A stretch of DNA of 64,000 nt, taken from Shewanella woodyi ATCC 51908. GTDB lineage: Bacteria; Pseudomonadota; Gammaproteobacteria; Enterobacterales; Shewanellaceae. The position numbers and the translations under genes were made by a program. The stretch is taken from NCBI RefSeq assembly GCF_000019525.1, contig NC_010506.1, positions 1,426,001 to 1,490,000 on the forward strand. Direction: 5' to 3'. Positions 35,349-55,435 of the stretch are shown piece by piece. Numbering within the stretch: position 1 is the first letter of the stretch; every line of letters starts with the position of its first letter. The notes beneath the pieces were generated by a model. That model was not told the origin of the DNA, did no database searches, and was given only the letters and a program-made list of their open reading frames with translations.

Positions 35349-37174
35349 CTCTGTTCCAATCGATTAATGAATTTGTGGTGCGTTTTGCGAATACAAACGG
35401 GACAGGTTCGGCGAGTGCGAATAATATGTTTGCCAAAGCCATTATGCGTATGGGCCTGCCAGTAAGTGCTAAGAATATCTTCCCCTCTAACATACAGGGG
35501 ATGCCAACTTGGTTTGAGGTAAGGATCAGCGAGAAAGGCTTTTTGGGACGTCGTGATGGTGCACCTGAGCTGGTGGTCGCGATGAATGCTCAATCTATTG
35601 AGGAGGATATTCAATCTGTCCAGCCGGGCGGTTTTTTGCTCTATGATTCCAGCCGCATCTTGCCCCAGAGGTTGATGCGAAAAGAGATTAACTTTTTAGG
35701 CATGCCTATCTCAGATATCTGCCGCGCAGAGTACAGCGATCCCCGTCAACGTCAGCTGTTTAAAAATGTTATCTATGTGGGGGCGCTCGCTGCGCTACTT
35801 GATATCGATTTTCAGGTGCTTAAAGATCTCGTTTCAGACCAGTTTAAGGGCAAAGATAAGCTAATTCGGCCCAATATCTATGCTTTAGAGCTAGGTTTTG
35901 AGTTCGCCAATAAGCAGTTTTCTTGCCCTCTGCCAATCTGTGTGGAGAGGCGTGACTTGATAGGTGACAGGATCTTAGTTGATGGCAATACCGCTTCTGG
36001 TTTAGGGGCGGTTTATGGTGGCGCTACTGTGGTTGGCTGGTACCCGATCACGCCATCTACCTCTGTGATAGAGAAGTTTGCCTCCTACTGCCAGCGCTTA
36101 CGAATAGACCCAGCAAACGGGCAAAAAAACTATGCCATCGTGCAGGCTGAAGATGAGTTGTCTGCTATTGGTATTGCCATGGGAGGTGGCTGGAATGGTG
36201 CTAGGGCATTTACTGCCACCAGTGGGCCGGGGATCTCCTTGATGACAGAGTTTCTTGGTTTGGCTTATTTTGCTGAAATCCCTCTAGTGTTGATGAATGT
36301 GCAACGGGCTGGGCCTTCAACGGGGATGCCTACTCGAACTCAGCAATCGGACATGTTGACCTGTGCTTATGCCTCTCATGGTGACAGCAAGCAGGTATTG
36401 TTAATCCCATCAACTCCAAAGGAGTGTTTTGATTTTAGTGCTCAGGCATTTGATCTGGCCGATAGGCTACAGACACCGATCATTGTGATGACAGATCTCG
36501 ATATGGGGATGAATATTCACTTGAGTGATCCCTTTGGCTGGGATGATAAGCATGAGTACGATCTGGGTAAAGTATTGGATGCTGACGACTTAGAGAAGGC
36601 GAGTGACTTCGGTCGCTACTTAGATGTTGATGGTGATGGCGTATGTTATCGAACACTGCCGGGAACCCATCCGAATAAAGGTGCTTTCTTTACCCGAGGC
36701 ACCTCCCATAACGAGTATGCGGCTTACACAGAAAAGGGGGAGGATTACATCAAAAATATGGAGCGCTTAGAGCATAAGTTTGCCATGGGCGTTAAGCGAT
36801 TACCCGCCCCTGAAATTACCATCAATACCAAGGCTAAACGTGTTGGGCTTGTTTACTACGGCTCGACTGATGAGGCGATTCCTGAGGCGGTGAGTTTGCT
36901 CTGTGAGCAGGGAGTGAAAGTCAATACCTTAAGGATTAGAGCTTTTCCCTTCAGCCCTCAAGTGGCCAGTTTTATCAGCGAACATGACGGTGTGTTTGTG
37001 GTGGAGCAGAATCGAGATGGGCAGGTTAAGAAGCTATTGTGTAATGAGCTGACCATTGACCCTGCCTCCATGTGCGCGGTATTGCACTATGATGGCTTGG
37101 CTATCACTGGACAATTTATTGCTGAGTCAGTTCAAGCCCAGCTCTCAGTTCAAACCGATCAGGCTGCAGGATAA
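35345..37174 (+). CDS. korA: 2-oxoacid:acceptor oxidoreductase, fused gamma-alpha subunit
   Basis: A 609-residue protein with an N-terminal gamma-type domain (about residues 1-190) joined to an alpha domain. DGNTASGLGAVYGGATVVGWYPITPST (about residues 215-240) is the KorA signature, and QRAGPSTGMPTRTQQSD carries residues used for substrate and CoA handling. It oxidatively decarboxylates a 2-oxoacid to acyl-CoA together with the beta subunit. 2-Oxoglutarate is the likeliest substrate by resemblance, but branched-chain or aryl 2-oxoacids are possible. The start was set at the ATG overlapping the previous stop. The next gene begins 9 bases downstream. Confidence 0.83.
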   Translation: MTLFQSINEFVVRFANTNGTGSASANNMFAKAIMRMGLPVSAKNIFPSNIQGMPTWFEVRISEKGFLGRRDGAPELVVAMNAQSIEEDIQSVQPGGFLLYDSSRILPQRLMRKEINFLGMPISDICRAEYSDPRQRQLFKNVIYVGALAALLDIDFQVLKDLVSDQFKGKDKLIRPNIYALELGFEFANKQFSCPLPICVERRDLIGDRILVDGNTASGLGAVYGGATVVGWYPITPSTSVIEKFASYCQRLRIDPANGQKNYAIVQAEDELSAIGIAMGGGWNGARAFTATSGPGISLMTEFLGLAYFAEIPLVLMNVQRAGPSTGMPTRTQQSDMLTCAYASHGDSKQVLLIPSTPKECFDFSAQAFDLADRLQTPIIVMTDLDMGMNIHLSDPFGWDDKHEYDLGKVLDADDLEKASDFGRYLDVDGDGVCYRTLPGTHPNKGAFFTRGTSHNEYAAYTEKGEDYIKNMERLEHKFAMGVKRLPAPEITINTKAKRVGLVYYGSTDEAIPEAVSLLCEQGVKVNTLRIRAFPFSPQVASFISEHDGVFVVEQNRDGQVKKLLCNELTIDPASMCAVLHYDGLAITGQFIAESVQAQLSVQTDQAAG

Positions 37175-37183
37175 GGAGGCGCT

Positions 37184-38236
37184 ATGAGTTACATCAAACC
37201 ACAATTTAAGCACCCAAGACTGCAGGTCAATGATCTTGGCTTAACCCACAGAGATTATGAAGGCGCACTGTCCACCTTATGTGCAGGCTGTGGGCATGAC
37301 TCTATCACCTCTGCGGTTGCGCAGGCTTGTGCTGAACTCTCTCTGCCACCACATAAGATAGCTAAGTTATCAGGCATAGGTTGCTCCTCGAAAGCGCCCA
37401 CCTATTTTCTTAACAACGCCCATGGTTTTAATACTGTACATGGACGTATGCCTTCGGTTGCAACGGGGGCGAATATGGCCAATCGGGAGCTTATCTATCT
37501 TGGAATGTCCGGTGATGGCGATAGTGCCTCCATTGGATTTGGCCAGTTTGCCCATGTGGTCAGGCGCCGTTTAAACATGCTCTATATGGTGGCCAATAAC
37601 GGCGTATATGGTTTAACTAAGGGCCAGTTGGCAGCCACTGCTGAGCAGGGAATGAAGAGTAAATCCGGTGAGGCGAGTCTGTTTACTGATATTGACCTGT
37701 GTGTGAGTGCACTGCAGTTTGGCGCGACCTTTGTGGCGCGCAGTTTTTCCGGTGATAAGTCGCAATTGGTGCCCTTAATTAAGGCGGCGATTAGCCATAA
37801 GGGGTTTGCGTTTATTGATATCATCTCCCCCTGCGTGACCTTTAATAATAACCCCGATTCAAATCGCTCCTATGATTATGTCCATGATCATATTACCACT
37901 GCTGCGGTGGCAGATTTTGTGCCTGTTAAGCAGGAGATACGCTGCGAGAATGGCCAATCAGATAGCGAGGATATCTGCCTTCATGATGGATCCATTTTGC
38001 GTCTGTCGAGAATAGATGCCGATTATGATGCCCATGATCGTATCAAGGCGATGACAAAAATAGAGCAGTTAAAGTCGGAGGGGAAAATACTCACAGGCCT
38101 GATGTATATCGATCCAGAAGCCGATGATTATCATGAGATAAACGGCACATCTGATGCCCCACTAAACTCTTTAAAGCAGGAAACTCTCTGCCCCGGCAGC
38201 CATGTATTGAAAACCATCAATGAGAGCTTTAGGTAG
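37184..38236 (+). CDS. korB: 2-oxoacid:acceptor oxidoreductase, TPP-binding beta subunit
   Basis: A 350-residue thiamine-diphosphate-binding subunit. LCAGCGHDSI (about residues 32-41) and KLSGIGCSSKAP (about residues 61-72) carry Fe-S/TPP cysteines. VHGRMPSVATGANMAN and the TPP/Mg motif GDGDSASIGFGQ with VANNGVYGLTKGQ follow, as in KorB/PorB. There is no fused ferredoxin domain here, since the Fe-S clusters are supplied by the first gene. AAGGAGG precedes the ATG. It ends 12 bases from the convergent DUF6445 gene. Confidence 0.87.
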   Translation: MSYIKPQFKHPRLQVNDLGLTHRDYEGALSTLCAGCGHDSITSAVAQACAELSLPPHKIAKLSGIGCSSKAPTYFLNNAHGFNTVHGRMPSVATGANMANRELIYLGMSGDGDSASIGFGQFAHVVRRRLNMLYMVANNGVYGLTKGQLAATAEQGMKSKSGEASLFTDIDLCVSALQFGATFVARSFSGDKSQLVPLIKAAISHKGFAFIDIISPCVTFNNNPDSNRSYDYVHDHITTAAVADFVPVKQEIRCENGQSDSEDICLHDGSILRLSRIDADYDAHDRIKAMTKIEQLKSEGKILTGLMYIDPEADDYHEINGTSDAPLNSLKQETLCPGSHVLKTINESFR

Positions 38237-38248
38237 TAGAGAGCATCA

Positions 38249-38962
38249 CTATTTAAAGTTGATAAAAATATTGCTGGTGAGCCGGCCTGTTTCTGGCTTG
38301 CTATCGATATCGGTATCGAGATCCACTAAGGTTGAGTGGAGTAGATTTCCCGGATAGATAATTAGCCGGTTTGGGCGATACTCCACTTGATGGTAGATCT
38401 CATAGTGTTCATTACTATGAGTAAAGTATTGCGGAGTTTGACGCTTTATCTCATCTAAACACACCTGGGCCTTGTTAAAATATTCATCAATCCTCTCGCT
38501 ATTAATACGCTCATATCCCGTAGGCTTATGTTTAAAAAAAGCGGTCGCACCATGGGGAGCACTATTGAGGTAGTGCAGTATGGCAAAGTAGTTGGGCTCC
38601 TTAGTATCAAAATGCGGCAGGCATTGCAGGGGCTGTAACGACTCCGGCGTTTGGGTGATCAAGGAGAAGCTATATATATGGGGCGTTATTCTTAAGTGGT
38701 GCGGAATTCGGTACACATCATAAATTAATTGAAATACCTGATTAATCACCTCTATGGCATAGGGCTTAGGTAACCTTGCCCTGACTCCTGGGTAGTAGGA
38801 ACCATTATCTTGTTTAAAGATAGCTTCATGAGCAAAAGAGAGCAGGGGAGCAAGATCTTCAGCAAAATCATCAATAATGATAATGGGGGTAGCTTCCTCC
38901 CCAATCTTGATTACTTGAGGGGAGAGTGATGAGATGCGTATCAGTGATGTCTGAGTATTCAT
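38249..38962 (-). CDS. DUF6445 protein, possible 2-oxoglutarate/Fe(II) oxygenase
   Basis: A 237-residue cytoplasmic protein matching DUF6445. It shows an HxD pair in LPHFDTKEPNYFAILHYLN (about residues 118-136) and a distal histidine in RLIIYPGNLLHSTL (about residues 203-216), an arrangement like 2-oxoglutarate-dependent oxygenases. That catalytic role is inferred. It is the last gene of a five-gene minus-strand operon, 8 bases behind a halogenase-like gene. DUF6445 genes commonly accompany tryptophan halogenases and TonB receptors. Confidence 0.78.
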   Translation of the reverse strand: MNTQTSLIRISSLSPQVIKIGEEATPIIIIDDFAEDLAPLLSFAHEAIFKQDNGSYYPGVRARLPKPYAIEVINQVFQLIYDVYRIPHHLRITPHIYSFSLITQTPESLQPLQCLPHFDTKEPNYFAILHYLNSAPHGATAFFKHKPTGYERINSERIDEYFNKAQVCLDEIKRQTPQYFTHSNEHYEIYHQVEYRPNRLIIYPGNLLHSTLVDLDTDIDSKPETGRLTSNIFINFK

Positions 38963-38970
38963 AACCCCTC

Positions 38971-40473
38971 TCAGACTACCGTTGATTTACAGTAATGCTG
39001 AACAAAATCAAAATGGGGCGGCAGGGTTTCCACCTTGCGCTTTGCCGCTGACTTTATCTGATGTAAAAAAGAGGTTAGCTCCTCATCTTCCATCGAATCC
39101 ACAATGCTATGGTACTCTTTGGGCATGATCCCTTGCCCTATCATTACCTGTATCCAAGAGCTTTCACCAAACAGCTCATTGCCAAACTTATAGATATTGC
39201 CTGTTTCATTGAACATCTCAATTCGATGGCGAAGCGAGTCGGGGATAGACATCTCTTTGCAGTAGCGCCAAAAGCGGCTGTCATCTCGATTGGTGGCTTT
39301 ATAGTGGAGAATGATAAAGTCGCGAATATTATCCATCTCAAACTTGGTTTGAGCATTAAACTCATCGGTATTTTGCTGAGCAAACTCTTGGGTGGGAAAG
39401 AGCTGCATTAGCCTGATAATACTGCGCTGGATTAGGTGAATGCTGGTGGACTCTAAAGGCTCTAGAAAGCCGCTAGAGAGCCCGATAGCAACACAGTTTT
39501 TGTGCCAATGTAAGCGACGTGTGCCTGTTTTGAACTTGATCACTCTTGGCTTGTTAATGGGTTCTCCCTCAATGTTACTCAGTAGCTGCTGTGTGGCGTC
39601 ATCATCTGAGATAAATTTACTGCAAAATACCATGCCATTACCGGTTCTATTTTGCAGAGGGATCCGCCACTGCCAACCCGATTGATGGGCGATAGAACGA
39701 GTGTAGGGGATAGGTGAATTGGTGGCCTCTGTTTGCACTGCGATGGCACTGTCACAGGGCAACCAGTGACTCCAATCTTCAAAACCCGTGTTAAGGGTTT
39801 GCTCTATCAGCAACGCTTTGAAACCGGTGCAATCGATAAAGAGGTCACCATTGATAACTTGACCACTTTCAAGAACTAACGCTTTGATATGACCATTACT
39901 GTTTGATTTAGAGTCTTGGTGTTGCAGCACATCGGCTATCTTGCCCTCTATTCGACTCATGCCATGTTGTTCGGCAAACTTTCTGAGGTATTTGGCGTAT
40001 AAACTGGCATCCATATGATAAGCATGGTTTTGATCTTGGTTTGGTAAAATGGCAAAGCGTCCCTCTCTAGCGGCGACATGTTCAGTGCAGTAATCACCTA
40101 TCTCACTGGCAATGCCCTGTTTTTTGCCTTTTAACCAAAAGTGTTGAAAGCCGCAAGCCCAGCAATCTTTTCCCAGAAAGCCAAATGAGTGTAGGTAGGA
40201 TTGATTGAGTTCTTTCCAGTTTTCAAATGAGATCCCTAATTTAAAGGTCGCATTGGTGGCTGCCATCACCTCCTGCTCCTTTAATCCCAGTAACCGATGG
40301 AATATATGCAGTGTTGGGATAGTGGCTTCACCTACCCCGACTGTGCCTATCTCATCTGATTCGACTAACACGATATCAAGGTGTTTCCCCATGAGTTTGC
40401 TTAGTGCTGCTGCTGTCATCCAGCCTGCGGTTCCTCCACCAGCGATGACGACTTTTTTGATTTTATTATCCAT
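38971..40473 (-). CDS. Flavin-dependent tryptophan-halogenase family protein (paralogue 1)
   Basis: A 500-residue protein of the PF04820 family. FADH2 from a reductase and halide give HOX, which a lysine guides to the substrate. Seen are the flavin motif GGGTAGW (residues 12-18), the catalytic-type lysine at 78 in ATFKLG, the WQWRIP motif (WxWxIP) typical of halogenases near residue 270, and the glutamate in EPLEST near residue 360. No secretion signal. The substrate is unknown; relatives from similar TonB-receptor loci halogenate indoles in vitro. GAGGAG precedes the ATG. Confidence 0.85.
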   Translation of the reverse strand: MDNKIKKVVIAGGGTAGWMTAAALSKLMGKHLDIVLVESDEIGTVGVGEATIPTLHIFHRLLGLKEQEVMAATNATFKLGISFENWKELNQSYLHSFGFLGKDCWACGFQHFWLKGKKQGIASEIGDYCTEHVAAREGRFAILPNQDQNHAYHMDASLYAKYLRKFAEQHGMSRIEGKIADVLQHQDSKSNSNGHIKALVLESGQVINGDLFIDCTGFKALLIEQTLNTGFEDWSHWLPCDSAIAVQTEATNSPIPYTRSIAHQSGWQWRIPLQNRTGNGMVFCSKFISDDDATQQLLSNIEGEPINKPRVIKFKTGTRRLHWHKNCVAIGLSSGFLEPLESTSIHLIQRSIIRLMQLFPTQEFAQQNTDEFNAQTKFEMDNIRDFIILHYKATNRDDSRFWRYCKEMSIPDSLRHRIEMFNETGNIYKFGNELFGESSWIQVMIGQGIMPKEYHSIVDSMEDEELTSFLHQIKSAAKRKVETLPPHFDFVQHYCKSTVV

Positions 40474-40494
40474 TGGGTCACTCCTCAGTTTGGG

Positions 40495-41511
40495 CTATCG
40501 CTTTAACTTATTGGTTAAATCGGCTCTTAGTTTTCGAGCATTAAGCTCATCGAGTGGTTTATGTAGGCAGCCCTGTGCGTGTGGGGGAATATGGTCTTGT
40601 GGCTGATCATCATGTTCAAAAATGTAGTGATCAAACAGGGCTTTCCAAGCAAGGCGTTGTGCTTTTGGCAAAGATCGCAGGCTTAACATGCTGTGAAGTA
40701 ATGCGTTATTAGGGCGTCCAAGGTAAGCGGGTGTATCTCGCCACCAATGGGTTATAAGCACATTAAATTCATCTAGGCTGCTGACATGGTGCCACCACAT
40801 GCTAGGGATAAAGAGTATATCTCCGGGGTCGAGTTCTGCGGTTTGAGAGGCCGCTAATGCTGTTGAAAATTTGGGGAATTTTTCTAAATCTGGCTGCTGT
40901 AAGTCAATCAAACTAATATCTTGACCGCCAGGGGAGAACTCCATTGGGCCTATGTATAGGTTACTGACTTGCTCAGGTGGAAAGAGGGTAAACCTTCTAT
41001 GTCCAACCGCATTGCAGGCTAGGTTATGTGGGAAATCAAAGTGAGCGGCAACATGGGTCTGGTTGCCAAGCCAGATATTCGTCAGAGGGGATATATCTCC
41101 AAGCATTAGGCTGTTTTCAGCCCCTAACCCTGGCAGACATTGGTTGATATCTGTTGATCCCATGTAGATCCCAGCAGGAGTTGGCCTATTGGCTTCCTGA
41201 ACTAGGTGTGAGAAGAGCTGCTTTAAATCCAGTCGTCCTGCTTGGTAGTTAAAACCGTTGAACTCACTGTTGTAGAAGACTCTTCCTTTGTGCTGCGGTG
41301 CAAGTTGATAGGCGGTGACAGGCATACCTTGATAGAAGGAGGCTAGGTATTTCATCGCTTCCTGATTCGATTCAAGCCCCGCTTTTACCAAGGGCCAATC
41401 TGAGCACAGCCCTTTAAAAACAAGCGGCTCATCAGCTGTCTCTATCTGAGACAGTAGCTCATCGATGTTGGACACTGTGATTGCTCTAACTTGAGTGTTG
41501 CCGGTGTTCAT
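40495..41511 (-). CDS. JmjC-type cupin (cupin_8) protein
   Basis: A 338-residue cytoplasmic protein. The Fe(II)-binding HxD is seen in VAAHFDFPHNLACNAVG (about residues 175-191), and the distal histidine is in DILFIPSMWWHHV (about residues 230-242). The N-terminal EPLVFKGLCSDWPLV motif is typical of FIH/JmjC-like hydroxylases. Members hydroxylate protein side chains or small molecules; the target here is unknown. It lies 13 bases after the SapC gene and 21 bases before the next halogenase gene. Confidence 0.82.
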   Translation of the reverse strand: MNTGNTQVRAITVSNIDELLSQIETADEPLVFKGLCSDWPLVKAGLESNQEAMKYLASFYQGMPVTAYQLAPQHKGRVFYNSEFNGFNYQAGRLDLKQLFSHLVQEANRPTPAGIYMGSTDINQCLPGLGAENSLMLGDISPLTNIWLGNQTHVAAHFDFPHNLACNAVGHRRFTLFPPEQVSNLYIGPMEFSPGGQDISLIDLQQPDLEKFPKFSTALAASQTAELDPGDILFIPSMWWHHVSSLDEFNVLITHWWRDTPAYLGRPNNALLHSMLSLRSLPKAQRLAWKALFDHYIFEHDDQPQDHIPPHAQGCLHKPLDELNARKLRADLTNKLKR

Positions 41512-41524
41512 TGGCTTTGCCTAC

Positions 41525-42247
41525 TTATTGTTTTGCATTTTTTAACGTTAACAGATCGCGGATCTTTGATTGCGATGCCATTGCCATATAGATGGCTTGT
41601 AGGTGTCCAGTCTTATGCAGTTGCGTTAACACTTCAGGCGCAAGGCCAGCCAGTATCTCCTCATTGATGGTATAGAAGCCTATCATCTGCTTCTGCTCCC
41701 CATTGTCGAGGGTGATATCTAAGGTGAATGACTCAAGCAGCTGATGTTCAATCAAGGTATCGATAAAGCGTTGACTGTCTTGCAGCCCGTAGTGGATTGT
41801 TTCTAGCATCTCTGCGGCGGCATCGAGAAAATCTGTATTACCACCAAAAGGGTGAAATAGAGCTTCCCCTTCGGTATCTGAAACTCTAGGACTCTCCATG
41901 TCGACATGAATTACCCTTTGTTGCTGCTCAATACCATCTTCACGTACTGTTTGCTGTCCAATGAGAAAAGGCTGACGTCTGACAGACAAAGGGATGTAGG
42001 ATGCTTGCCAACCCTCATCATTTAAAAAGAGGTTCTCATTGTGCTGAAAGCCAAATAGGGCGACAGAAAAGAACTGACCAGTAGCGCCATCTTTGTGAAA
42101 AAAGATAGGGTAGCTTGCCTGAATACTGCGAAACTCTGCGGGAAAGGTCACGCTGTACCACATATTGTCCCCGAGCTCCTTTGAGCGTTCGGTTATCACT
42201 TTAAGATCTTTATGCTCTAGGCTATTAAGTAGTACATGTTTGCTCAT
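41525..42247 (-). CDS. SapC family protein
   Basis: A 240-residue cytoplasmic protein of the SapC family (PF07277). It has the conserved start H-V-LLN-H-DLKV, the YPIFFHKDG segment (about residues 46-54) and YIPLSVRRQPFLIG (about residues 84-97). The family was first linked to Campylobacter S-layer export but is found widely beside TonB receptors and tryptophan halogenases; its biochemical role is not known. AGGAC precedes the ATG. Confidence 0.83.
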   Translation of the reverse strand: MSKHVLLNSLEHKDLKVITERSKELGDNMWYSVTFPAEFRSIQASYPIFFHKDGATGQFFSVALFGFQHNENLFLNDEGWQASYIPLSVRRQPFLIGQQTVREDGIEQQQRVIHVDMESPRVSDTEGEALFHPFGGNTDFLDAAAEMLETIHYGLQDSQRFIDTLIEHQLLESFTLDITLDNGEQKQMIGFYTINEEILAGLAPEVLTQLHKTGHLQAIYMAMASQSKIRDLLTLKNAKQ

Positions 42248-42291
42248 TTGATAGGTCCTAATGGTTGTTCGATCGAGTCGAATTTTTATTG

Positions 42292-43878
42292 TTATAAAGT
42301 AGGGAAACCAAACTGTTTAACTTTGTCGAGTAACTCTCTGTTGCTGGGTAAGGTCTGGCTCAGGGAGCGAGTTCGCTTCTGATTCTCAACGAACATGGTT
42401 TGTGCTTGTTGAAGCATAGAGGGTTTGATGCAAGTTGGCTTTTGAGTCTGAAACCCCATTCCATAGAGTACGTATTGAAAACTTGCCGCAGGAAATAGTG
42501 GGTCTTTGTGATCGATATCTTGCGAGCATGGCACTTGGTAGTGCCAGAATTCAAGCTGTGATTGTAAACTGTCGGGGATGGAGCTTGTTTGTTGATGATC
42601 ACGCCAGTAGGGCGTGTTGTTTCGACTGCTAAGCACGTAATGAAGTTTTAAAAAATCGATTATCTGTTGCCAGTGCTGTACATAGCGGTTGTTTACCCGA
42701 GTTGCTATTAGCTCCATGGATGCTCTATTTGGCGGCAGCTGTTGGGCGAGAGTCGTAGCACTCCATTCTACTAGGGCTAATGCCGAAGCTTCTAAAGGCT
42801 CAATGAATCCAGCAGCCATCCCAATGGCAATACAGTTATTTCTCCAGCACTTTTGATGATATCCCGGGGCTATCTCCAGCTTTCTTATCTCTGTTTTAGC
42901 CCGTTTATAGGCATCTTTTCCTATATAGTCCAGTAGTGCTTTCTCTGCTTCTTGATCCGATGCATGTTCTGATGAGTAGACATAGCCCACTCCTTTGCGT
43001 GTGGGCAGGCCTATATCCCATATCCAGCCACTCTCTTGTGCAGTGGACAGAGTACAGGAGGCGATAGGGCTATTTTCTTCAGGATAGGGGATCTGTATGG
43101 CCAGAGCACTATCATTAAATAGGACCGATTTTTGAGAGAGAAATGGCTCTTGATAATGCTTGCCTAGCAGTAGTGATTTCAGCCCTGAGCAGTCAACGAA
43201 TAGGTCGCCACTAACAGAACCTGACTGAGTGCACTGCACACTTTTAATGTCACCATTGGTGTGTTCATTGATCCCGACTACGTGGTCGCTAATATAGTTG
43301 ACACCTAATTTCTCAGTGCAGTGTTTCATTAGTAGCTGGCTAAACTTTCCTGCATCAAGGTGGTAGCCATAGTTATTATGAAAGTGATACTCGGGGGTTG
43401 AGATGGATTTAGGGGCTAATCCAAGTTGAGTTAACTGATCTTGGCTCGATACCGCTAAGGCAAAGCTGACCTCCTCTTGGTGAGCCAGCCAAAATGGTGC
43501 TAGGTCGATCTCTTGATGTGCAAAAGGAAGGCTAAAAGGGTGGAGGTAATCATTGGCATTGTTTGGCGTATGGGGTGCTGAAAGCTCACTGTGCCAGTTA
43601 ATAAACCTCGAACCTTGCTTAAAGCTTGCATCACACTCAATGATAAACTGAGTTTCACTAATCCCAATTTTAGTCAAAGTGTTACGCATGGAAGGCCAAG
43701 TACCTTCACCCACACCGATTGGAGGGATATCTGGTGACTCGATTAAGGTGATATTGAGTTTGGGGGTAGTGAGGAGTTTGCCATTATCTGTATTATGCTC
43801 AGCAGCCAGTATTCCAGCAGTTATCCAGCCAGCGGTGCCGCCGCCTACAATAATGATATTACTGATCGCTTGGTGCAT
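42292..43878 (-). CDS. Flavin-dependent tryptophan-halogenase family protein (paralogue 2)
   Basis: A 528-residue PF04820 protein and first gene of the minus-strand operon. GGGTAGW lies at residues 12-18, the catalytic-type lysine at 87 in ASFKQG, and EPLEAS near residue 360. The halogenase WxWxIP motif appears as WIWDIG, with glycine in place of proline. It is clearly diverged from paralogue 1 and longer. The substrate is unknown. A palindrome TAACGT-4-ACGTTA lies 20 bases upstream (43898-43913). Confidence 0.84.
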   Translation of the reverse strand: MHQAISNIIIVGGGTAGWITAGILAAEHNTDNGKLLTTPKLNITLIESPDIPPIGVGEGTWPSMRNTLTKIGISETQFIIECDASFKQGSRFINWHSELSAPHTPNNANDYLHPFSLPFAHQEIDLAPFWLAHQEEVSFALAVSSQDQLTQLGLAPKSISTPEYHFHNNYGYHLDAGKFSQLLMKHCTEKLGVNYISDHVVGINEHTNGDIKSVQCTQSGSVSGDLFVDCSGLKSLLLGKHYQEPFLSQKSVLFNDSALAIQIPYPEENSPIASCTLSTAQESGWIWDIGLPTRKGVGYVYSSEHASDQEAEKALLDYIGKDAYKRAKTEIRKLEIAPGYHQKCWRNNCIAIGMAAGFIEPLEASALALVEWSATTLAQQLPPNRASMELIATRVNNRYVQHWQQIIDFLKLHYVLSSRNNTPYWRDHQQTSSIPDSLQSQLEFWHYQVPCSQDIDHKDPLFPAASFQYVLYGMGFQTQKPTCIKPSMLQQAQTMFVENQKRTRSLSQTLPSNRELLDKVKQFGFPTL

Positions 43879-44050
43879 GTGCTATTTATTATCCCCGTAA
43901 CGTTAAGACGTTATCTTTGTATAACATACTTTTATCTATTCTGATCGCTATTGCGTTGCTTCCACATTATAGGAAAGAGATCACTTCCTTGTGATTCAAG
44001 TTTGTCATTAGAGCCAAAATTGACTGGCTCTATTCACTATGACATTAAAA

Positions 44051-44073
44051 TGAGGTAACAAATTTATACCTCA
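44051..44073 (-). terminator. TonB-receptor gene terminator
   Basis: TGAGGTA / TACCTCA 7-bp stem with a 9-base loop; the minus strand continues TTTTAATG. It lies 20 bases after the receptor stop. A second inverted repeat, AGAGCCA / TGGCTCT, lies at 44010-44031. Termination is probably incomplete. Confidence 0.5.
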
Positions 44074-44093
44074 AGACCTCTAGCAGAACTCAG

Positions 44094-47090
44094 TTAGAAG
44101 GTGTAACGTGCGCCTAAACTGTACCTAGCTCCAGTTTGTGTATAATTTAGGACCTGCTCATTAGCACGGCCATGCACGCGAGTATTCTCATCTGTGATGT
44201 TGAGACCTTCGATAAAGACTGTTAACCCTTCGACCATTGGAACGTCATAGCCAATGTTAAAATCAACTTGCGAATAGGCTTCAGTGTATTGTGGATTCGC
44301 ACCTGTACCTTGTCCTTGAGAGTTTAAAAACTCATCACGCCAGTTGTAGGCGATACGGGCTGTAAATCCATAGTTTTCATAGATACCCACTAGGTTAGCG
44401 GTGTCACTGATACCATTAATCACATTTTGCGACGGATCTCCTGGGCGACCCAAGTTGGCATTATTGTAGCTATCACCTGCATTAACTAAGGTGTAGTTAG
44501 CCTGCACGCCAAAGCCTGACTCACCAAAGAAGTGCTGAATGGCAAACTCCCAACCGTCGATAACATTGCTTAAATCGCTGTTGGTTGGTTTAGTGATGAG
44601 GAAGTTGAGATCCGGATCGCCAGGATTACCAGCTATCTCAATATTGCCGTTAGCTGGGTTGATGCTAACGTTAGGATCTGTGCTGCCATAATTATCAAAA
44701 ATCCATTGTCTCTGCTCAATTGCAGTTGATGCACCAGCCGCGATGGCTTCCTGAACATACTGACCATTTGATGGATCTGGAATATTGTAGAGGTTTGAAT
44801 TTTCAGGGTTTGAGCTAATAAAGTTAGTGACATCTTTTCTAAAGTAGCCGACAGAGACGTAGCTGCCTTCATCATAGTACCACTCCGTTGAGATATCATA
44901 GTTAGTTGACTCTAACGGTAACAAACTCGGGTTACCGGCTTCGCCACTGCCTCCGCCTCTGTTGGCAAGAGTACCGACTGTGGTACCACCTTGAATGGAG
45001 GTGTAGTCTGGACGGCCTATGGTTTCACTAAACGCCATGCGGACATAGATATCTTCAACCACTTCAATATTGAAGTTTACGCTTGGCAGTAGGTAATCAT
45101 AATCACCGGTTTGGGTCTGGAATACTCGGTTATCAGCCGCTGAACTCGATAGCGCAATCTCAGTTTCGGCAATCCAAGTTGCCGTGTCGTAGGCTGATAC
45201 TGCAGAGGTTGAGGTGACGTCAGTCTTTTCATAACGTAAGCCCACATGCACATCAAATGGCATATCGCCTAGGTCACCCGCATAATTATATTGAATATAG
45301 GCTGATTGTGACTCCTCTTGGGTAAATCTATCGGTGTCACTGGCATAATCTGTTGAGGGGCAGAACCCATTACCACAGTCACCAACGGCGCTCGATGCAT
45401 AAAGCTCTGCTGCGCGAGCTCTCACCGCTTCAAAGTCCCAAAGGAAGATGGTGTTTAGTGGATCTGTTGCCGCCGAGCCTTGGTAGTCTGAGAAATCACC
45501 TTGTGAGCCATCAAGCTTGTCCAATACTGTGTCTTGTGGGAACCAAGCTGCATCGAGATCTCCCTCTGAACCAACGCCTCCCCAATCGTTTCGCTGAACA
45601 TTGACCGATTGAGAGTGGTTATTCACATCTGTCATGGCTATGCCAAAGTCGATAGTGCCAGCCTCTTCAAGATCATAGCTTCCTGAAATCTGTAACTGCT
45701 CTATCTCTGAGCGGTTAATTGCGTTGGTAAATACTGACCCTGTCACGCGCATATCTTCAGGTCTAACGGCATTGCCACCGCCAACGGCCAATACGGGCAC
45801 ATCACCAGTAAAGTCTGTCGCTGCACTGGTTCTAACAAAAGCGGCTGTGCTTAATAAGCTGCTACTACCGTTCGGACTGTTAGGGGTACGCTCTGCGTAT
45901 GAGTCATGATAATCCAATGCTAAAGAGAGGTTTTCACTCACTTCCCAATCGATATTTAAGCCTAATGAACCACTTTGATCTCGGGTGCCATAGTCACCAG
46001 CCGCCATAGAGAGATCCGCTGGTGCATCATAAAGTTCAGAATAAACCAGTGGCGAGGAGACAGGGCCATCGCTCCACGTACTCTCCTGTGTTGGCACAAA
46101 GTTGAACCAAGCTGAGACATCGTGAAATTGAGTATCGACATCATTGCGCATATAGGTGTAGTCGAGGGTGGTACGAATTGAATCTGTTGGCTGATATTGC
46201 AGCACGAGTTGACCATTGGTACGTTTACGCTGCTGCTCTTCAAATCGATAGACTGTGGTTTGCGGTACGCTATACACATCATCGTCACCTGGACGATTTA
46301 TCTGATTTGCATCTTTTGGTACGCCGCCCCATTCAGCATTTGAACCAGCCCAATCTTGGTCGACTATGCCAGGAAAACTGCGCCAGCCTGTTCCAACTTG
46401 TGCTTGCTGATTACCACTTTCACGTTCCTGATAGCTGCCTGAAATAGAGATCCCGAATTTGTCATCGGCAAAGGTATTTGAGTACAGGCCTGATAACTCA
46501 GGAGTGACAGAGCCTTTATCTGTTGATGAGTCATCAACGGCTTTAGCCCCAAAAGAGGCTTTTAGACCTGGAGAGCTTAGTGGTCTGTGGGTCAATACAT
46601 TGATAGTGGCACCAATACCACCCGTTGGGTTTGATGCTTGCGCTGTTTTCTCTACTTCAACGGCGCTAATGGCCTCTGATGCGATATTGGCAAAATCAAA
46701 AGAGCGAGATCCTGTGGTCACAGGCATCTGGCGATTATTAAGTAGGACTAAGTTTTGATCGGCACCGAAACCACGAACCGATACTCGGCTACCTTCGCCG
46801 TTTTGACGATCGATTGAAACGCCGGTGATACGTTGTAGTGATTCAGCCAAGTTACTGTCGGGGAACTTACCTATGTCCTCGGCGTTAATGGCATCGACAA
46901 TTCCTTCTGAGCCACGCTTAAGATCCATTGATTTAATTAAACTGCCGCGGATACCTGAAACCTGAATCACTTCGATATTTTTATCTTGGCTAGTATCATC
47001 TGCAGCCATAGCAGGCATGATACCGCTTACCCCCAATATTAAGGACAAGCTGCTAGCCAGTTTAGTTTTAGTAAAATGCTTACGTTCCAT
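44094..47090 (-). CDS. TonB-dependent receptor (TIGR01782-like)
   Basis: A 998-residue outer-membrane receptor. A signal peptide ends at AMAAD (about residue 29). A TonB-box-like IEVIQVSG lies at about residues 39-46, then the plug domain (about residues 60-170; FPDSNLAESLQRITGVSI, VSVRGFGADQNLVLLNNRQMP) and a long barrel ending in YSLGARYTF. It resembles the TonB-Xanth-Caul class that imports oligosaccharides in Shewanella, Xanthomonas and Caulobacter. With GH1, GH3 and two sugar permeases nearby, beta-glucosides are the probable cargo. A LacI-type palindrome lies about 100 bases upstream. Confidence 0.88.
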   Translation of the reverse strand: MERKHFTKTKLASSLSLILGVSGIMPAMAADDTSQDKNIEVIQVSGIRGSLIKSMDLKRGSEGIVDAINAEDIGKFPDSNLAESLQRITGVSIDRQNGEGSRVSVRGFGADQNLVLLNNRQMPVTTGSRSFDFANIASEAISAVEVEKTAQASNPTGGIGATINVLTHRPLSSPGLKASFGAKAVDDSSTDKGSVTPELSGLYSNTFADDKFGISISGSYQERESGNQQAQVGTGWRSFPGIVDQDWAGSNAEWGGVPKDANQINRPGDDDVYSVPQTTVYRFEEQQRKRTNGQLVLQYQPTDSIRTTLDYTYMRNDVDTQFHDVSAWFNFVPTQESTWSDGPVSSPLVYSELYDAPADLSMAAGDYGTRDQSGSLGLNIDWEVSENLSLALDYHDSYAERTPNSPNGSSSLLSTAAFVRTSAATDFTGDVPVLAVGGGNAVRPEDMRVTGSVFTNAINRSEIEQLQISGSYDLEEAGTIDFGIAMTDVNNHSQSVNVQRNDWGGVGSEGDLDAAWFPQDTVLDKLDGSQGDFSDYQGSAATDPLNTIFLWDFEAVRARAAELYASSAVGDCGNGFCPSTDYASDTDRFTQEESQSAYIQYNYAGDLGDMPFDVHVGLRYEKTDVTSTSAVSAYDTATWIAETEIALSSSAADNRVFQTQTGDYDYLLPSVNFNIEVVEDIYVRMAFSETIGRPDYTSIQGGTTVGTLANRGGGSGEAGNPSLLPLESTNYDISTEWYYDEGSYVSVGYFRKDVTNFISSNPENSNLYNIPDPSNGQYVQEAIAAGASTAIEQRQWIFDNYGSTDPNVSINPANGNIEIAGNPGDPDLNFLITKPTNSDLSNVIDGWEFAIQHFFGESGFGVQANYTLVNAGDSYNNANLGRPGDPSQNVINGISDTANLVGIYENYGFTARIAYNWRDEFLNSQGQGTGANPQYTEAYSQVDFNIGYDVPMVEGLTVFIEGLNITDENTRVHGRANEQVLNYTQTGARYSLGARYTF

Positions 47091-47183: not shown

Positions 47184-47197
47184 TGTAAGCGCTTACA
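47184..47197. promoter_or_regulatory. LacI-type operator at the TonB-receptor promoter
   Basis: TGTAAGCGCTTACA is a perfect 14-bp palindrome with the central CG step of LacI/GalR-family operators. It lies 94 bases before the receptor ATG; the LacI-type gene is next door. The rest of the 47091-47395 gap has no gene. Confidence 0.75.
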
Positions 47198-47395: not shown

Positions 47396-48397
47396 CTATT
47401 TTAAGCTTTTGACTGAATCTCGCAGAATTAATTGAGGGGTAAATGTGTTTACTATGCTCAAATCTGGCTTGTTGTATACATTCTTTAATACCCAAAGTGC
47501 AGCCATTTTGCCCATCTCTTGAATTGGGTTACTGACGGTTGAGAGCTTAGGGGAGATATATTTGGGAAAAGGGGAGTTATCATAGCCGATAAATGACAGC
47601 TGTTTGGGGACGCTAATATCGCGCTCTAAGCTGACGGCGATAGCCCCTGATGCCATCTGGTCGTTGGCACTGATCACGCAGGTAAATTGCTTATCCTGTT
47701 TGAGCAGATACTCCATAGCGCTTACCCCACTGGGTTCACGAAAGTTGCCCTCAAAAAAAAGAGTCTCATCAAAGGTCACTTCAAATTCAGCTAAGGCCTG
47801 TTTATGCCCCTCTAAGCGCTCTCTTGCATCGGACTTAAATTGTGGCCCAGCAATGTAAGCTAGCTGTGTGTGCCCCTGAGACAGAACATGTTTTGTCGCT
47901 AGGTATCCACCTAAAGCGTTATTGAGGTAGATACATCTCTCCTCTATTTCGCTGATAAATCGGTTAATTAATACGATAGGCGTGCTTTGCTGACATAAGT
48001 TAATGATGTACTCATCACTGAGTGCTTCAACATCTAAGATGAGGGCATCACAGCCTCTATCAAGGAGAAACTCTACAGCCTCTTTCTCTTGAGTCTCGTT
48101 GCTGTGTCCTGCTGCGATAATGACATGCTTGTTGGCATCGCGAAGCGCAGTTTCAATCTCGGTCATCATGGGGCCATAAAACGGACCATCGAGCTGAGAG
48201 ACTAGCACACCAATGCTGTTAGAGCGGTTTGACGCCAGTGATTGGGCTATGGAACTGGGTCGATAACCCAGTTGATCCATCGCATCTTGCACTTTCTTTT
48301 TAGTCTTCTCACTGACATTGGTGTTTTTATTCATCACCCTAGACACAGTCGCTAGGGAAACACCTGCCAATACTGATACATCATAGATGGTGGCCAT
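47396..48397 (-). CDS. LacI-family transcriptional repressor
   Basis: A 333-residue regulator. The N-terminal helix-turn-helix and hinge are TIYDVSVLAGVSLATVSRVMN (about residues 3-23) and YRPSSIAQSLAS (hinge helix, about residues 46-57). A periplasmic-binding-protein-like sugar sensor follows (about residues 60-330). It probably controls the surrounding beta-glucoside genes through the palindromes at 47184 and 51345. Last gene of the GH1-permease-lacI unit. Confidence 0.88.
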   Translation of the reverse strand: MATIYDVSVLAGVSLATVSRVMNKNTNVSEKTKKKVQDAMDQLGYRPSSIAQSLASNRSNSIGVLVSQLDGPFYGPMMTEIETALRDANKHVIIAAGHSNETQEKEAVEFLLDRGCDALILDVEALSDEYIINLCQQSTPIVLINRFISEIEERCIYLNNALGGYLATKHVLSQGHTQLAYIAGPQFKSDARERLEGHKQALAEFEVTFDETLFFEGNFREPSGVSAMEYLLKQDKQFTCVISANDQMASGAIAVSLERDISVPKQLSFIGYDNSPFPKYISPKLSTVSNPIQEMGKMAALWVLKNVYNKPDLSIVNTFTPQLILRDSVKSLK

Positions 48398-48447: not shown

Positions 48448-49776
48448 TTATTTTTCCATTCTATTTAATTCGAGATGGATCTCATCAACTTTGCTGTTTT
48501 TTAGGGTGTATTTGCGCATAACGATGGCAACTAAAATAGAACCTACTGCTGGGTAGACGGTGAAAGAGAGTAAAATACCATTTAGGGTTTGTGGTGTTTG
48601 TTCTACATCTGCCTGGTAACCGTAACCTGAGAGTAACCAGCCAGCTGCTGCTCCGCCTATGGCTACGCCAAGTTTGATAAAGAAAATAATTGAGGAGTAG
48701 ATAATGCCGGTGAGCCTAACCCCATCTTTATACTGGCCGTAATCAACCGTATCCGCCATCTTTGCCCACAACAGTGGTGTGGCCATATTGAACGCAAATC
48801 CCCATAGGATAAACATGGCGAAAGCGAGTTCCACCTGCTCCTTCGGGACAAAATAGGTGGCAATACATAAGGCCGCCGCAATCAATTGCAGTGAGATGTA
48901 CGCGTTGACTTTACAGACGCGTTTCGCCAATGGCTGAGCTAACATGCAACCAAAAATATTACCTACCATACCCAATGTGATGAAAAGAGTTATCTTATCC
49001 GGCATCTGCAGGAAGTATTTTACATAGTAGATGGCTAGGCTAGTTTTTAGCACCATACCTGAGAGCAGACATACTGATGCGATACATAAGATGCGCCATT
49101 GATCATTCTTCACCAAATAACCGACATCTTGCTTAAAGCTTGATTGGTGGGGCTGAGAAGGAGTGAGCCTCTCTTTAGTATTCCAAAAGCAGATTAAAAA
49201 CATCGCCACGCCTAAAATACTCATGGCAGTGATAGTGAGTTGATAGCCTTTAGCTTGATCTCCCTCACCGAGAAACTCAACCAAAGGTAAGGTCAGTCCC
49301 GAGACTAATAGCCCTCCTAACATCGCAAATACGAAGCGGTAGGATTGCACTGAAACACGCTCTTTAGGATCGGAGGTGAGTACCCCACCTAATGCGCAGT
49401 AGGGGATATTAATTGCGGTATAAACCATCATCAACGCAGTGTAAGTGACAAAGGCGTATATCATCTTTCCCTGCTCAGAGAGGTCTGGCGTAGTAAAAGC
49501 CAAGACACTGAAGAGTCCAAAGGGGAGGGCAAACCAGAGCAGATAGGGCCTAAATTTTCCATAGCGTGTTTGGGTTCTGTCGGTCATCGCCCCCATTAAG
49601 GGATCGGTAATAGCATCTATAAGACGCACGGCTAAGAACATGGTACCGACAAAGGCGGGAGGGATCCCAAAAATATCAGTATAGAAAAACGTTAGAAACA
49701 ACATGACCGTCTGAAATACGATATTACTGGCAGTATCTCCTAATCCATATGCAATCTTCTCTTTAACACTGACCAT
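48448..49776 (-). CDS. Glycoside-pentoside-hexuronide:cation symporter (MFS)
   Basis: A 442-residue inner-membrane transporter of the GPH (MelB-like) family. KEKIAYGLGDTASNIVFQ starts the protein, DAITDPLMGAMTDRTQTRYGKFRPY (about residues 53-77) is the family's cation/loop signature, and about twelve helices follow. It lies 44 bases after GH1 in the same direction, so the likely cargo is a beta-glucoside cleaved by that enzyme. Confidence 0.88.
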   Translation of the reverse strand: MVSVKEKIAYGLGDTASNIVFQTVMLFLTFFYTDIFGIPPAFVGTMFLAVRLIDAITDPLMGAMTDRTQTRYGKFRPYLLWFALPFGLFSVLAFTTPDLSEQGKMIYAFVTYTALMMVYTAINIPYCALGGVLTSDPKERVSVQSYRFVFAMLGGLLVSGLTLPLVEFLGEGDQAKGYQLTITAMSILGVAMFLICFWNTKERLTPSQPHQSSFKQDVGYLVKNDQWRILCIASVCLLSGMVLKTSLAIYYVKYFLQMPDKITLFITLGMVGNIFGCMLAQPLAKRVCKVNAYISLQLIAAALCIATYFVPKEQVELAFAMFILWGFAFNMATPLLWAKMADTVDYGQYKDGVRLTGIIYSSIIFFIKLGVAIGGAAAGWLLSGYGYQADVEQTPQTLNGILLSFTVYPAVGSILVAIVMRKYTLKNSKVDEIHLELNRMEK

Positions 49777-49820: not shown

Positions 49821-51161
49821 TTAGTTATCGGTATGACGTGCTGTAATAAAGTCTCGATAGGCAAGTCCACTGGCTTTTATCGTGCGAACTTGCGTATTGT
49901 AGTCAACATATACCAATCCGAAGCGTTTTAGGTAGCCTTCAGCCCACTCAAAGTTATCCATTAAACTCCATGCGAAGTAGCCCTGAATATTGACGCCCGC
50001 TTCTATCGCTTTGTCCAATGCTTCAAGGTGACCTTGGTAATATTGAACTCTGTCTAGATCATTGACCGATTGCGCTATCAGTTTATCGTCCATCGCTGCA
50101 CCATTTTCGGTGATGTAGATAGGAGGCAGTTGATAGGATTTATCCAGAGAGATAAGTAGGTCCGTAAAAGCTTGAGGGTAGATCTCCCAGCCAATATCTG
50201 TTCTAGGAACATCAGGCATGGTTATCTCTTTAAATCTTTGCTCTGGACAGTGTTGATATCGATTTCGGGTATAAAAATTAACGCCCAAGAAATCGAGAGG
50301 TTGAGTCAGAATATCCATATCTCCCGCCAAAATAACGGGTTTATCCTTATCCTCTAAGCTGCCCATAATATCTGGGTAACGGCCATCGAAAAGTGGCTTG
50401 ATATACCATTGGTTAAAGTATTCATCGGCAAGGGCTGCTGCTTTCTTATCTTGCAGAGAATCGCTGACCGGATAGCAAGGGGTAAAGTTCAGTACGATAC
50501 CATTGAGGCTATGTGGGGCGTTTTTTTGCAGCACCTGCATCGCGAGTCCATGGGCGAGCAGTAGATGATGTGCTGCTTGTCTGCCATAGGATACCTGTGC
50601 CAACCCCGGAGCATGAATACCTGCCTCGTAACCTAAGTATGAGCTGCAAAACGGCTCATTGAGTGTCGCGTAAGAGTAGACTCTATCGCCGAGGATTTGG
50701 CTGACTTTATCAGCATAGTCTTGAAACAGGAAGGCGGTTTCGCGGTTGAGCCAGCCGCCATTGTCTTCAATATGTTGTGGTAGATCCCAATGATAGAGAG
50801 TGACAAAGGCTTTAATCTTCTTGCGTTTGAGGGCATCAAGTAGCTGAATATAAAAATCTATTCCTTCAGAATTAACGCTGCCATCTTGATTGATCACCCT
50901 GCCCCAAGAGAGTGAAAGTCGGTAAGCATCTACGTTCAGTGAATCAATCAGTTCAATATCTTCTTTCCATAGTTTCAGGTGCTCACAGGCTGATTTGCCA
51001 TCAGAACCATCACGGATCTTCCCTTGGGTTGAACAGAAGGTATCCCAAATGCAGGGGAGTCGGGAGTCATAGCCCCCCTCAATTTGAAACGAAGCGGTGG
51101 CAACGCCGTAAGTAAACTCTTTTTGGTTAAGCCTCGACGCTTCTGGTAAAGATATTTTCAT
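49821..51161 (-). CDS. GH1 beta-glucosidase
   Basis: A 446-residue cytoplasmic glycoside hydrolase family 1 enzyme. FTYGVATASFQIEGG (about residues 16-30) is the N-terminal signature. The acid/base is Glu169 in TLNEP and the nucleophile is Glu352 in ITENGAA; both are intact. It hydrolyses cellobiose-like or aryl beta-glucosides. The ATG at 51161 gives the usual GH1 N-terminus and length; an in-frame extension upstream to 51275 lacks family similarity. First gene of an operon with the GPH permease and LacI. Confidence 0.9.
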   Translation of the reverse strand: MKISLPEASRLNQKEFTYGVATASFQIEGGYDSRLPCIWDTFCSTQGKIRDGSDGKSACEHLKLWKEDIELIDSLNVDAYRLSLSWGRVINQDGSVNSEGIDFYIQLLDALKRKKIKAFVTLYHWDLPQHIEDNGGWLNRETAFLFQDYADKVSQILGDRVYSYATLNEPFCSSYLGYEAGIHAPGLAQVSYGRQAAHHLLLAHGLAMQVLQKNAPHSLNGIVLNFTPCYPVSDSLQDKKAAALADEYFNQWYIKPLFDGRYPDIMGSLEDKDKPVILAGDMDILTQPLDFLGVNFYTRNRYQHCPEQRFKEITMPDVPRTDIGWEIYPQAFTDLLISLDKSYQLPPIYITENGAAMDDKLIAQSVNDLDRVQYYQGHLEALDKAIEAGVNIQGYFAWSLMDNFEWAEGYLKRFGLVYVDYNTQVRTIKASGLAYRDFITARHTDN

Positions 51162-51344
51162 TAAATCATCACTTATTCTAATTCTGGGTTGTTGTTCGAC
51201 GCTAGCGTGTTCACTTTTGATAATGTGCTTGGCTCTGTTGACCATGGTTCTCGAAGTTCTGGTTTTTGAGAGCACGGTTATTGTGCGCAGTTGTCGAAAT
51301 ATAGTCGCAAAACATGTTGACTTTGGTTATCGCGATGTTAACAA

Positions 51345-51358
51345 TGAAAGCGCTTACA
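51345..51358. promoter_or_regulatory. LacI-type operator in the GH1/MFS divergent region
   Basis: TGAAAGCGCTTACA matches the palindrome at 47184 in 13 of 14 positions. It lies between GH1 (minus) and the FucP-type permease (plus), 112 bases before the latter's ATG, so it could serve both promoters. Confidence 0.7.
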
Positions 51359-52756: not shown

Positions 52757-52804
52757 TTTTTCACTCTCTCAAATGACGCATTATAATTAAAAGGTTTTGA
52801 TACT

Positions 52805-55393: not shown

Positions 55394-55435
55394 TTCTAAT
55401 CATTAAATTTACTTATTATCGTTGGAGAGAGGCTC

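Follow-up and report, generated by a model that had tools for sequence, protein, structure and literature searches.

Linkage of a TonB receptor to an operon of halogenase-like and oxygenase-like enzymes in Shewanella woodyi, and its possible role in receptor tailoring

Introduction

The closest described relatives of one of the enzymes considered here are the flavin-dependent halogenases Xcc4156 (structure 6Y1W) and BrvH (6FRL), which are described as indole-halogenating in two papers whose main texts mention neither TonB nor SapC (PMC7336383, PMC5945002). A second halogenase gene adjoins that of BrvH, according to passages of its report (PMC5945002), and passages of the other paper state that it is not known on which native substrates BrvH and the Xanthomonas halogenases such as Xcc4156 act (PMC7336383). 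A comparable pair of genes, named HAL1 and HAL2, is found in a stretch of 64,000 nucleotides from Shewanella woodyi ATCC 51908 (NC_010506.1, positions 1,426,001 to 1,490,000), referred to below as the window. Together with SapC and two putative Fe(II) oxygenases, the pair constitutes a five-gene set located behind the gene of a TonB-dependent receptor. The linkage between this receptor and the operon is solid across genomes. It is best read, with a rough probability of 0.55, as that of a cytoplasmic tailoring system dedicated to the receptor and modifying it before export.

The second described system to which this locus can be compared is the Bgl pathway of Shewanella (Rodionov 2010, PMC2996990). 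The likeness resides in the LacI regulator BglR, the GPH symporter BglT, the receptor OmpBgl and the glucosidases, and the difference in the halogenase and SapC, which are absent from the main text of that paper. In the literature, no report tying these halogenases to TonB receptors or to SapC was found among titles, beginnings of abstracts and passages, and the neighbourhood may have been described before, in subscription articles about the halogenases of Xanthomonas or about loci for N-acetylglucosamine.

Organization of the locus

The six genes are carried by the minus strand and read in the order receptor, HAL1, SapC, cupin, HAL2 and DUF6445. The receptor (44094..47090, 998 amino acids), the proposed substrate of the operon, combines the TonB barrel and plug domains of Pfam and belongs to the TonB-Xanth-Caul family TIGR01782, with 621.8 bits against a cut-off of 310. 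A gap of 215 bases separates it from HAL1 (42292..43878, 528 amino acids). SapC (41525..42247, 240 amino acids), a Cupin_8/JmjC-type Fe(II) oxygenase (40495..41511, 338 amino acids), HAL2 (38971..40473, 500 amino acids) and DUF6445 (38249..38962, 237 amino acids) follow, with intergenic gaps of 44, 13, 21 and 8 bases along the five-gene set. The first-pass annotation of the window had described these five tightly spaced genes behind a TonB receptor, and all six open reading frames (ORFs) were indeed recovered at these positions. Its family labels (two halogenase-like proteins, SapC, a JmjC-type cupin and DUF6445) were borne out by Pfam, with E-values of 3.4e-189 and 9e-114 for PF04820, 3.7e-71 for PF07277, 7.1e-68 for PF13621 and 3e-68 for PF20043. 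It had also noted that the five products are devoid of a secretion signal, in agreement with our own examination by eye, which recognizes a signal peptide in the receptor alone.

Conservation of the linkage

Gene neighbourhoods were compared across genomes, as suggested by the same annotation. The closest relatives of HAL2 are Shewanella proteins, with identities of up to 81%, and the neighbourhoods compared include a locus of S. frigidimarina (L100) and relatives in Lysobacter, Luteimonas and Pseudoxanthomonas. Among the best 80 HAL2 loci of other genomes, some of which lie on stretches that stop at contig ends, the receptor is present in 74, the cupin in 70, SapC in 69, HAL1 in 52 and DUF6445 in 38, while receptor, SapC, cupin and HAL2 are found together in 62. 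The gene order in these loci is receptor, (HAL1), SapC, cupin, HAL2, (DUF6445). HAL1 and DUF6445 are optional members of the operon, and HAL1 is missing from the four Paraglaciecola loci and from 7 of the 9 named Rheinheimera loci. When all gathered loci are considered, 175 of 219 halogenase genes follow a receptor as part of a chain of system genes on the same strand. The 44 others comprise 7 genes at stretch ends, 19 whose chain is interrupted by an ORF on the opposite strand (some of these ORFs are spurious, as GC-rich genomes yield reverse ORFs of this kind that break some gene chains) and 18 whose chain is interrupted by another gene.

The same arrangement recurs within S. woodyi itself, whose genome of 5.94 Mb is assembled in one contig. 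It contains 12 PF04820 matches, of which the 8 strong ones (>380 bits) are distributed in five places, each located less than 4 kb from a TIGR01782 receptor; conversely, 5 of the 9 TIGR01782 receptors above the cut-off are accompanied by halogenases. Of the 150 halogenases listed in 20 whole genomes, 89 lie less than 10 kb from a listed receptor, against 5.7 expected. Inspection of the neighbourhoods of 56 of the 61 others revealed a receptor in 48 cases and none in 8. With 2 or 4 receptor and 4 or 8 halogenase candidates scored per genome and with capped lists, so that all counts are lower bounds, and with genomes treated as independent in the Fisher tests, a draw of 185 genomes from the class of the window (Gammaproteobacteria) gave at least 9 genomes with halogenases, at least 8 with receptors and at least 6 with both (4.5e-8), and a draw of 398 genomes from its phylum (Pseudomonadota) gave at least 63, at least 78 and at least 53, respectively (2.7e-36).

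Two properties of these loci deserve attention. Outside the class, 12 of 20 hand-picked linked receptors are divergent from the nearest halogenase instead of lying upstream on the same strand, and the adjacency therefore persists without a shared transcript. Moreover, the interval between the receptor and the first gene behind it has a median of 138 bases and is shorter than 90 bases in 29 of 117 cases, so that a separate precursor peptide gene of the RiPP type (ribosomally synthesized and post-translationally modified peptide) would find little space there. A lack of co-conservation with the receptor had been named at the outset as one finding that would refute the proposal; co-conservation was found to be very strong and to follow the clades of the receptor.

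These clades, named I, II and M (a mixed group), were delimited by us on a midpoint-rooted tree. In the gammaproteobacterial set, which is enriched for the HAL2 query by construction, a receptor is called linked when at least one of the five families lies directly downstream on the same strand (SapC alone in 3 of 115 cases); the 12 receptors whose enzymes are nearby without following directly were excluded, and stretches of about 9 to 20 kb were checked for the unlinked receptors. In the receptor tree (170 sequences), the presence of the system changes 10 times, and a tree built without the signal peptides (169 rows) also gives 10 changes, whereas 100 shuffles of the labels give 46.5 on average. 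In the halogenase tree (212 sequences), the clade of the associated receptor changes 6 times among the 180 labelled rows, the 32 enzymes without an assignable receptor being left out of the count. The HAL1-type and HAL2-type enzymes each divide largely into a clade I form and a clade II form. As a single genome can hold loci of both clades, such as that of the window (L049 on the one hand, L042 and L045 on the other), species history alone is insufficient to account for this co-division of receptor and halogenase families, which is solid. Inheritance of the operon as a block explains it; this is expected of dedicated enzymes, yet it is not a proof of their action on the receptor.

Some loci depart from the common layout. 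Two Catenovulum loci (L109, L111) contain two successive receptor-halogenase pairs, in the order receptor, HAL1, receptor, HAL2, with one clade II and one clade I receptor. In Steroidobacter-type loci (L139, L140, L141, L143, L152), an extra SapC gene is located upstream of the receptor on the opposite strand.

The halogenase-like enzymes, the oxygenases and SapC

The alignments of HAL2 with Xcc4156 and BrvH (643 and 478 bits) cover almost the entire protein; these two are, with 9LUQ, its closest solved relatives and share its flavin adenine dinucleotide (FAD), Lys and Glu motifs. HAL1 can be aligned over its whole length with the 'tryptophan halogenase' 2PYX (834 bits), an unnamed halogenase from unpublished structural-genomics work according to passages of PMC7336383. 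Both window proteins display the sequence hallmarks of the PF04820 halogenases, namely the GxGxxG FAD motif (visible by eye), the catalytic Lys (K87 in HAL1, K78 in HAL2), the Glu (E363 and E341) and the WxW motif. These residues are retained almost without exception in the HAL2 and HAL1 families: Lys in 128/129 and 83/83 proteins, Glu in 127/129 and 83/83, the first Trp of WxW in 129/129 and 83/83 and the second in 127/129 and 82/83. The two families differ in the residue that follows the catalytic Glu, which is Ser in 127 of 129 HAL2 proteins and is replaced by Ala in HAL1 of the window as in 82 of 83 HAL1 proteins.

QhpG, LodB and GoxB, which we take to be protein-tryptophan monooxygenases, would be work-alikes of these enzymes in that the substrate would be a protein Trp. 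HAL1 matches the QhpG model, and HAL2 matches the QhpG, GoxB and LodB models weakly (best 2.4e-10), with scores that stay far below the curated NCBIfam cut-offs (39.9 versus 240 bits for QhpG, about 20 versus 400 for GoxB and LodB); neither enzyme is a member of these families. As regards the C-terminal, substrate-binding part of the halogenases of free Trp (PrnA, RebH, PyrH and others), the alignments of HAL2 with PrnA and with 4 of 5 RebH sequences end at residue 422-423, those with one RebH row, Trp-5 and some Trp-6 halogenases extend to 490-491, and the alignment of HAL1 with RebH reaches residue 517-518.

The first-pass annotation had pointed out HxD...H motifs in the cupin and in DUF6445, and both are present. 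In the cupin family, this triad, expected of an Fe(II)/2-oxoglutarate (2OG) oxygenase, is kept in 77 of 77 proteins. The closest solved relatives of the cupin are FIH (factor inhibiting HIF) and JMJD5, which share its iron site (best E-value 6.6e-18); the best matches span only about 142 to 262 of its 338 residues. DUF6445 gave no significant sequence match in the PDB. Its predicted structure (predicted local distance difference test, pLDDT, 95.5) has OGFOD1 as top match, followed mostly by protein hydroxylases, and combines a jelly-roll fold, the HxD...H motif and a basic residue, as in a putative Fe(II)/2OG oxygenase. Its identity with the protein prolyl hydroxylases OGFOD1, PHD2 and P4H of P. 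putida is 10-15%, a shared fold that does not imply a shared substrate. The model also matches PiuC (9qn0) and the Shewanella putative oxygenase 3dkq. Oxygenases of the PiuC/YbiX type presumably adjoin iron TonB receptors, without a halogenase or SapC. The closest solved relatives of both oxygenases are mostly protein hydroxylases, as far as their usual activities and entry titles can tell.

SapC, whose name presumably derives from Campylobacter S-layer loci, yields a confident AlphaFold2 model (pLDDT 95.1) with no match among solved folds and no enzyme match. It occurs in 27 of the 185 class genomes, versus at least 9 with strong halogenase matches, and its other neighbourhoods are informative. 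Among 23 fetched SapC loci without a halogenase, a non-receptor ORF of more than 900 amino acids is present in 16 (a few of these ORFs may be artefacts of a high GC content), a ShlB/FhaC-like transporter in 7 and a two-partner secretion (TPS)-like domain in 3; neither the transporter nor the TPS match is found in any of 160 halogenase/receptor loci. The Pfam analysis of 10 SapC neighbours identified a TPS domain in one of three large proteins, the other two having no family, and otherwise two ShlB, one OEP, two FecR, one TPR-methyltransferase and one small protein without a family. The large or two-partner-secreted neighbours of these halogenase-free loci suggest that in many cases SapC works with an exported protein encoded next to it, possibly a large one. 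The stretches with ORFs of more than 900 amino acids are L158, L159, L161-L169, L172, L176, L189, L191 and L192. In two further loci, a TPR-methyltransferase fusion protein adjoins SapC (L188:6963-8576 and L190:10075-11688), the methyltransferase being recognized by Pfam in the former and by homology in the latter.

A tryptophan signature in linked receptors

Two receptor residues distinguish most linked receptors from unlinked ones. They correspond in the window to W503 (RNDWGGV, codon 45582..45584, minus strand) and W917 (AYNWRDE, codon 44340..44342, minus strand). W503 was singled out in clade I of the gammaproteobacteria before the comparison with other classes, and W917 was found in both sets together. 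The other-class set consists of 40 receptors (20 linked, 20 unlinked) from outside the class of the window, presumably mostly from Alphaproteobacteria, which were hand-picked from listed coordinates and first used to examine signal peptides. Each linked receptor lies no more than 2.3 kb from a listed halogenase. The 20 unlinked ones come from 16 genomes, in which a complete search located no halogenase within 50 kb of them; 10 of the 20 belong to genomes that have none at all.

The pair W503-G/S and W917-R/K is found in 97 of 135 linked receptors versus 1 of 75 unlinked ones. Among the linked, it is carried by 75/77 receptors of clade I, 15/20 of other classes, 6/33 of clade II and 1/5 of clade M; among the unlinked, by 0/49 of clade M, 0/20 of other classes, 0/5 of clade II and 1/1 of clade I. 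When the receptors are divided into slices of 40 residues, the frequency of W[GS] in slice 481-521 is 0.76 in linked versus 0.03 in unlinked receptors (0.75 versus 0.05 in the other-class 20 and 20 only), and no other slice comes near it in both sets. In a scan of 9,600 aromatic-dipeptide-by-slice tests led by WG at W503 and by WR and NW around W917, the nine top differences in both sets all concern these two positions. Position 917 is Trp in 102/135 linked versus 11/75 unlinked receptors, in which Tyr is the commonest residue (37/75).

On this basis, W503 and W917 are perhaps targets of the enzymes, a proposal to which we give less than even odds. An alternative that bears on the targets and is compatible with receptor tailoring is that the Trp pair is a sugar-stacking feature of some receptor clades, co-inherited with an unrelated linked operon. 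This has a real chance of being correct, short of even odds: the phylogenetic contrasts are too few to rule out shared ancestry, and W[GS] stands at position 503 in two receptors (L048, L277) whose fetched stretches hold no halogenase belonging to them. Against it stand the convergence of the nine top tests on the same two Trp in the gammaproteobacterial and other-class sets, and the replacement of the Trp of linked receptors by Tyr at position 917 in many unlinked ones.

The single unlinked clade I receptor with the pair, L048:6693-9689, belongs to the genome of the window. It is the closest paralogue of the window receptor (566 bits), is devoid of an operon of its own, and its fetched stretch contains no copy of the operator pattern described below; it could be served in trans by enzymes encoded elsewhere. 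Another locus of this genome, L042 (2707326-2711422), combines a receptor with a single HAL2 gene, and the receptors of its group lack both Trp and show by eye an aromatic-rich loop at the place of W503. A third Trp of the window receptor, W254 (NAEWGGV, codon 46329..46331, minus strand), is conserved within an otherwise variable loop in clade I receptors only.

A further candidate was a leader motif in the n-region of the signal peptide (F, then K, R or P one or two residues on), considered as a general recognition element of the precursor and dropped, as it fails outside the class. It is found in 62/77 clade I and 25/32 clade II linked receptors, versus 11/55 unlinked receptors and 43/319 other secreted-like ORFs (defined by a home-made signal-peptide rule); the independent pairs (2.7 to 1.0) are not significant. 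When the mature proteins are equally divergent, linked receptors of clades I and II resemble one another in their signal peptides more than unlinked receptors do, in pairs that are not independent. The motif may be lineage-specific.

Sugar regulation

Upstream of the receptor, profile matches on the minus strand identify a BglR-like LacI-family regulator (47396..48397), a BglT-like GPH-family sugar:cation symporter (48448..49776) and a GH1 beta-glucosidase (49821..51275, start codon uncertain). A candidate operator, the perfect palindrome TGTAAGCGCTTACA (47184..47197), is located 93 bases before the receptor start and adjacent to the LacI-type regulator, and a second copy with one mismatch (51345..51358) lies between the beta-glucosidase operon and divergent plus-strand genes. 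As many operator matches as in the window were obtained in 2 of 100 shuffles. The pattern TGNAAGCGCTTNCA was found in 40 of 80 related loci (L078-L157), by eye mostly just before the receptor, in a search run across the fetched loci only and without a chance control there. No consensus terminator was found among the listed sites between the receptor and HAL1, and terminator-like and promoter-like sites across the region do not exceed the level of shuffled sequences. The shared candidate operator and the nearby LacI-type regulator thus suggest that receptor and enzymes are probably a single sugar-controlled unit.

Interpretation

The first-pass annotation had proposed that a cytoplasmic system modifies aromatic residues in a protein, which might be the receptor prior to its export. 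This remains the best supported proposal, on account of the enzyme relatives, the neighbourhoods of SapC and the two-Trp signature in many linked receptors. In such a system, beta-glucosides would derepress the LacI-type regulator and the receptor and enzymes would be made together. SapC would hold or present the unfolded receptor precursor, the halogenase-like enzymes would oxidise its Trp side chains by halogenation or hydroxylation, and hydroxylation of further residues would fall to the FIH-like cupin and to the OGFOD1/PHD-like DUF6445. All of this would occur in the cytoplasm, before export of the receptor and its insertion in the outer membrane. The candidate targets W503 and W917 are placed by our reading of the sequence on stretches leading to extracellular loops, and, once modified, they would adjust how well the receptor captures sugar or how stable it is at the cell surface. 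The boldest version of this scheme is a family of outer-membrane nutrient receptors enzymatically rebuilt before export, in which halogenase-like flavoenzymes oxidise or brominate the two conserved Trp, two Fe(II) oxygenases hydroxylate further residues, and SapC, possibly a new fold, acts as the carrier, for giant and two-partner-secreted proteins as well; in all its details, this version is rather unlikely to be right.

Several observations weigh against receptor tailoring. Some halogenases have no nearby receptor (8 of 56 inspected, and likewise loci L186 and L187), and 10 of the 63 halogenase genomes of the phylum draw have no strong receptor match. The two-Trp signature is not universal, being absent from 38 of 135 linked receptors, chiefly in clade II (27/33). 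Its tree-controlled contrasts have the right direction for W503 (2.8:0.0 over 9 pairs), too few for significance, and amount to 1.6:0.6 for W917. The leader motif occurs in only 1 of 5 linked clade M receptors and, outside the class, in 1/20 linked versus 3/19 unlinked receptors. Across 78 receptors of clade I, of which 48 have HAL1 nearby and 30 do not, no receptor residue convincingly tracks its presence, the best among the matches listed being F329 with at most 4:0 pairs. As to the enzymes, the top NCBIfam match of HAL2 is the small-molecule halogenase CmlS, far below its cut-off. The matches of the cupin include C2orf60, which we take to act on tRNA. Small-molecule oxygenases (HygX, GriE, PolD, PasI, SnoN) appear in the match lists of DUF6445, and HygX heads its Foldseek list.

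In another reading, named by the first-pass annotation for a halogenated ligand or signal, the enzymes would synthesize a small aromatic compound, halogenated or oxidised, which would act as a ligand, signal or antibiotic and whose production would be coupled to the supply of sugar; the receptor would then only share the regulon. Xcc4156, BrvH and others do halogenate free indole compounds in vitro, according to passages of PMC7336383 and PMC5945002, and co-regulation by a sugar regulator suffices to explain the operon structure. This alternative is nevertheless unlikely in our view, as the enzymes follow the receptor clade even when several receptors and halogenases coexist in one genome, giant or two-partner-secreted proteins are often found in the other homes of SapC, and no further family recurs between the receptor and DUF6445 in the compared neighbourhoods, whose flanking genes were not profile-typed. 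Less probable still is an intracellular action on the sugar ligand or its aglycone, for instance an aromatic beta-glucoside imported by the receptor. The beta-glucosidase, symporter and LacI regulator of the locus make aromatic glucosides plausible substrates, but the same enzyme set is also found in loci without GH1 or GPH in the fetched stretch (present in 29 and 34, respectively, of the 80 HAL2-related loci), and the FIH-like and OGFOD1-like relatives, by their usual activities or entry titles, act mostly on proteins. TonB receptors being common receptors of phages and bacteriocins, a modification masking or altering them against such entry would agree with the inferred position of both Trp in surface-leading stretches, but it is very improbable, since the PADLOC defence models match none of the five proteins and control by a sugar operator fits nutrition better.

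If receptor tailoring is confirmed, a native role will have been found for a large group of orphan 'tryptophan halogenases'. Enzymes acting on the neighbouring receptor would add an unsuspected layer of chemistry to outer-membrane receptors and offer a route to the site-selective modification of protein Trp. The question is directly testable, as the data single out one protein, two residues and a control class of receptors.

Neighbouring genes

Translations examined by eye suggest the nature of the regions on both sides. Convergent to the operon, on the plus strand (33552-38236), are three genes resembling a 2-oxoacid ferredoxin oxidoreductase with a glutamate-synthase-like FAD protein. On the other side, the divergent plus-strand genes (51470-56338) resemble an MFS glucose transporter, a GH3 glucosidase and a ROK glucokinase, which would complete the Bgl pathway.

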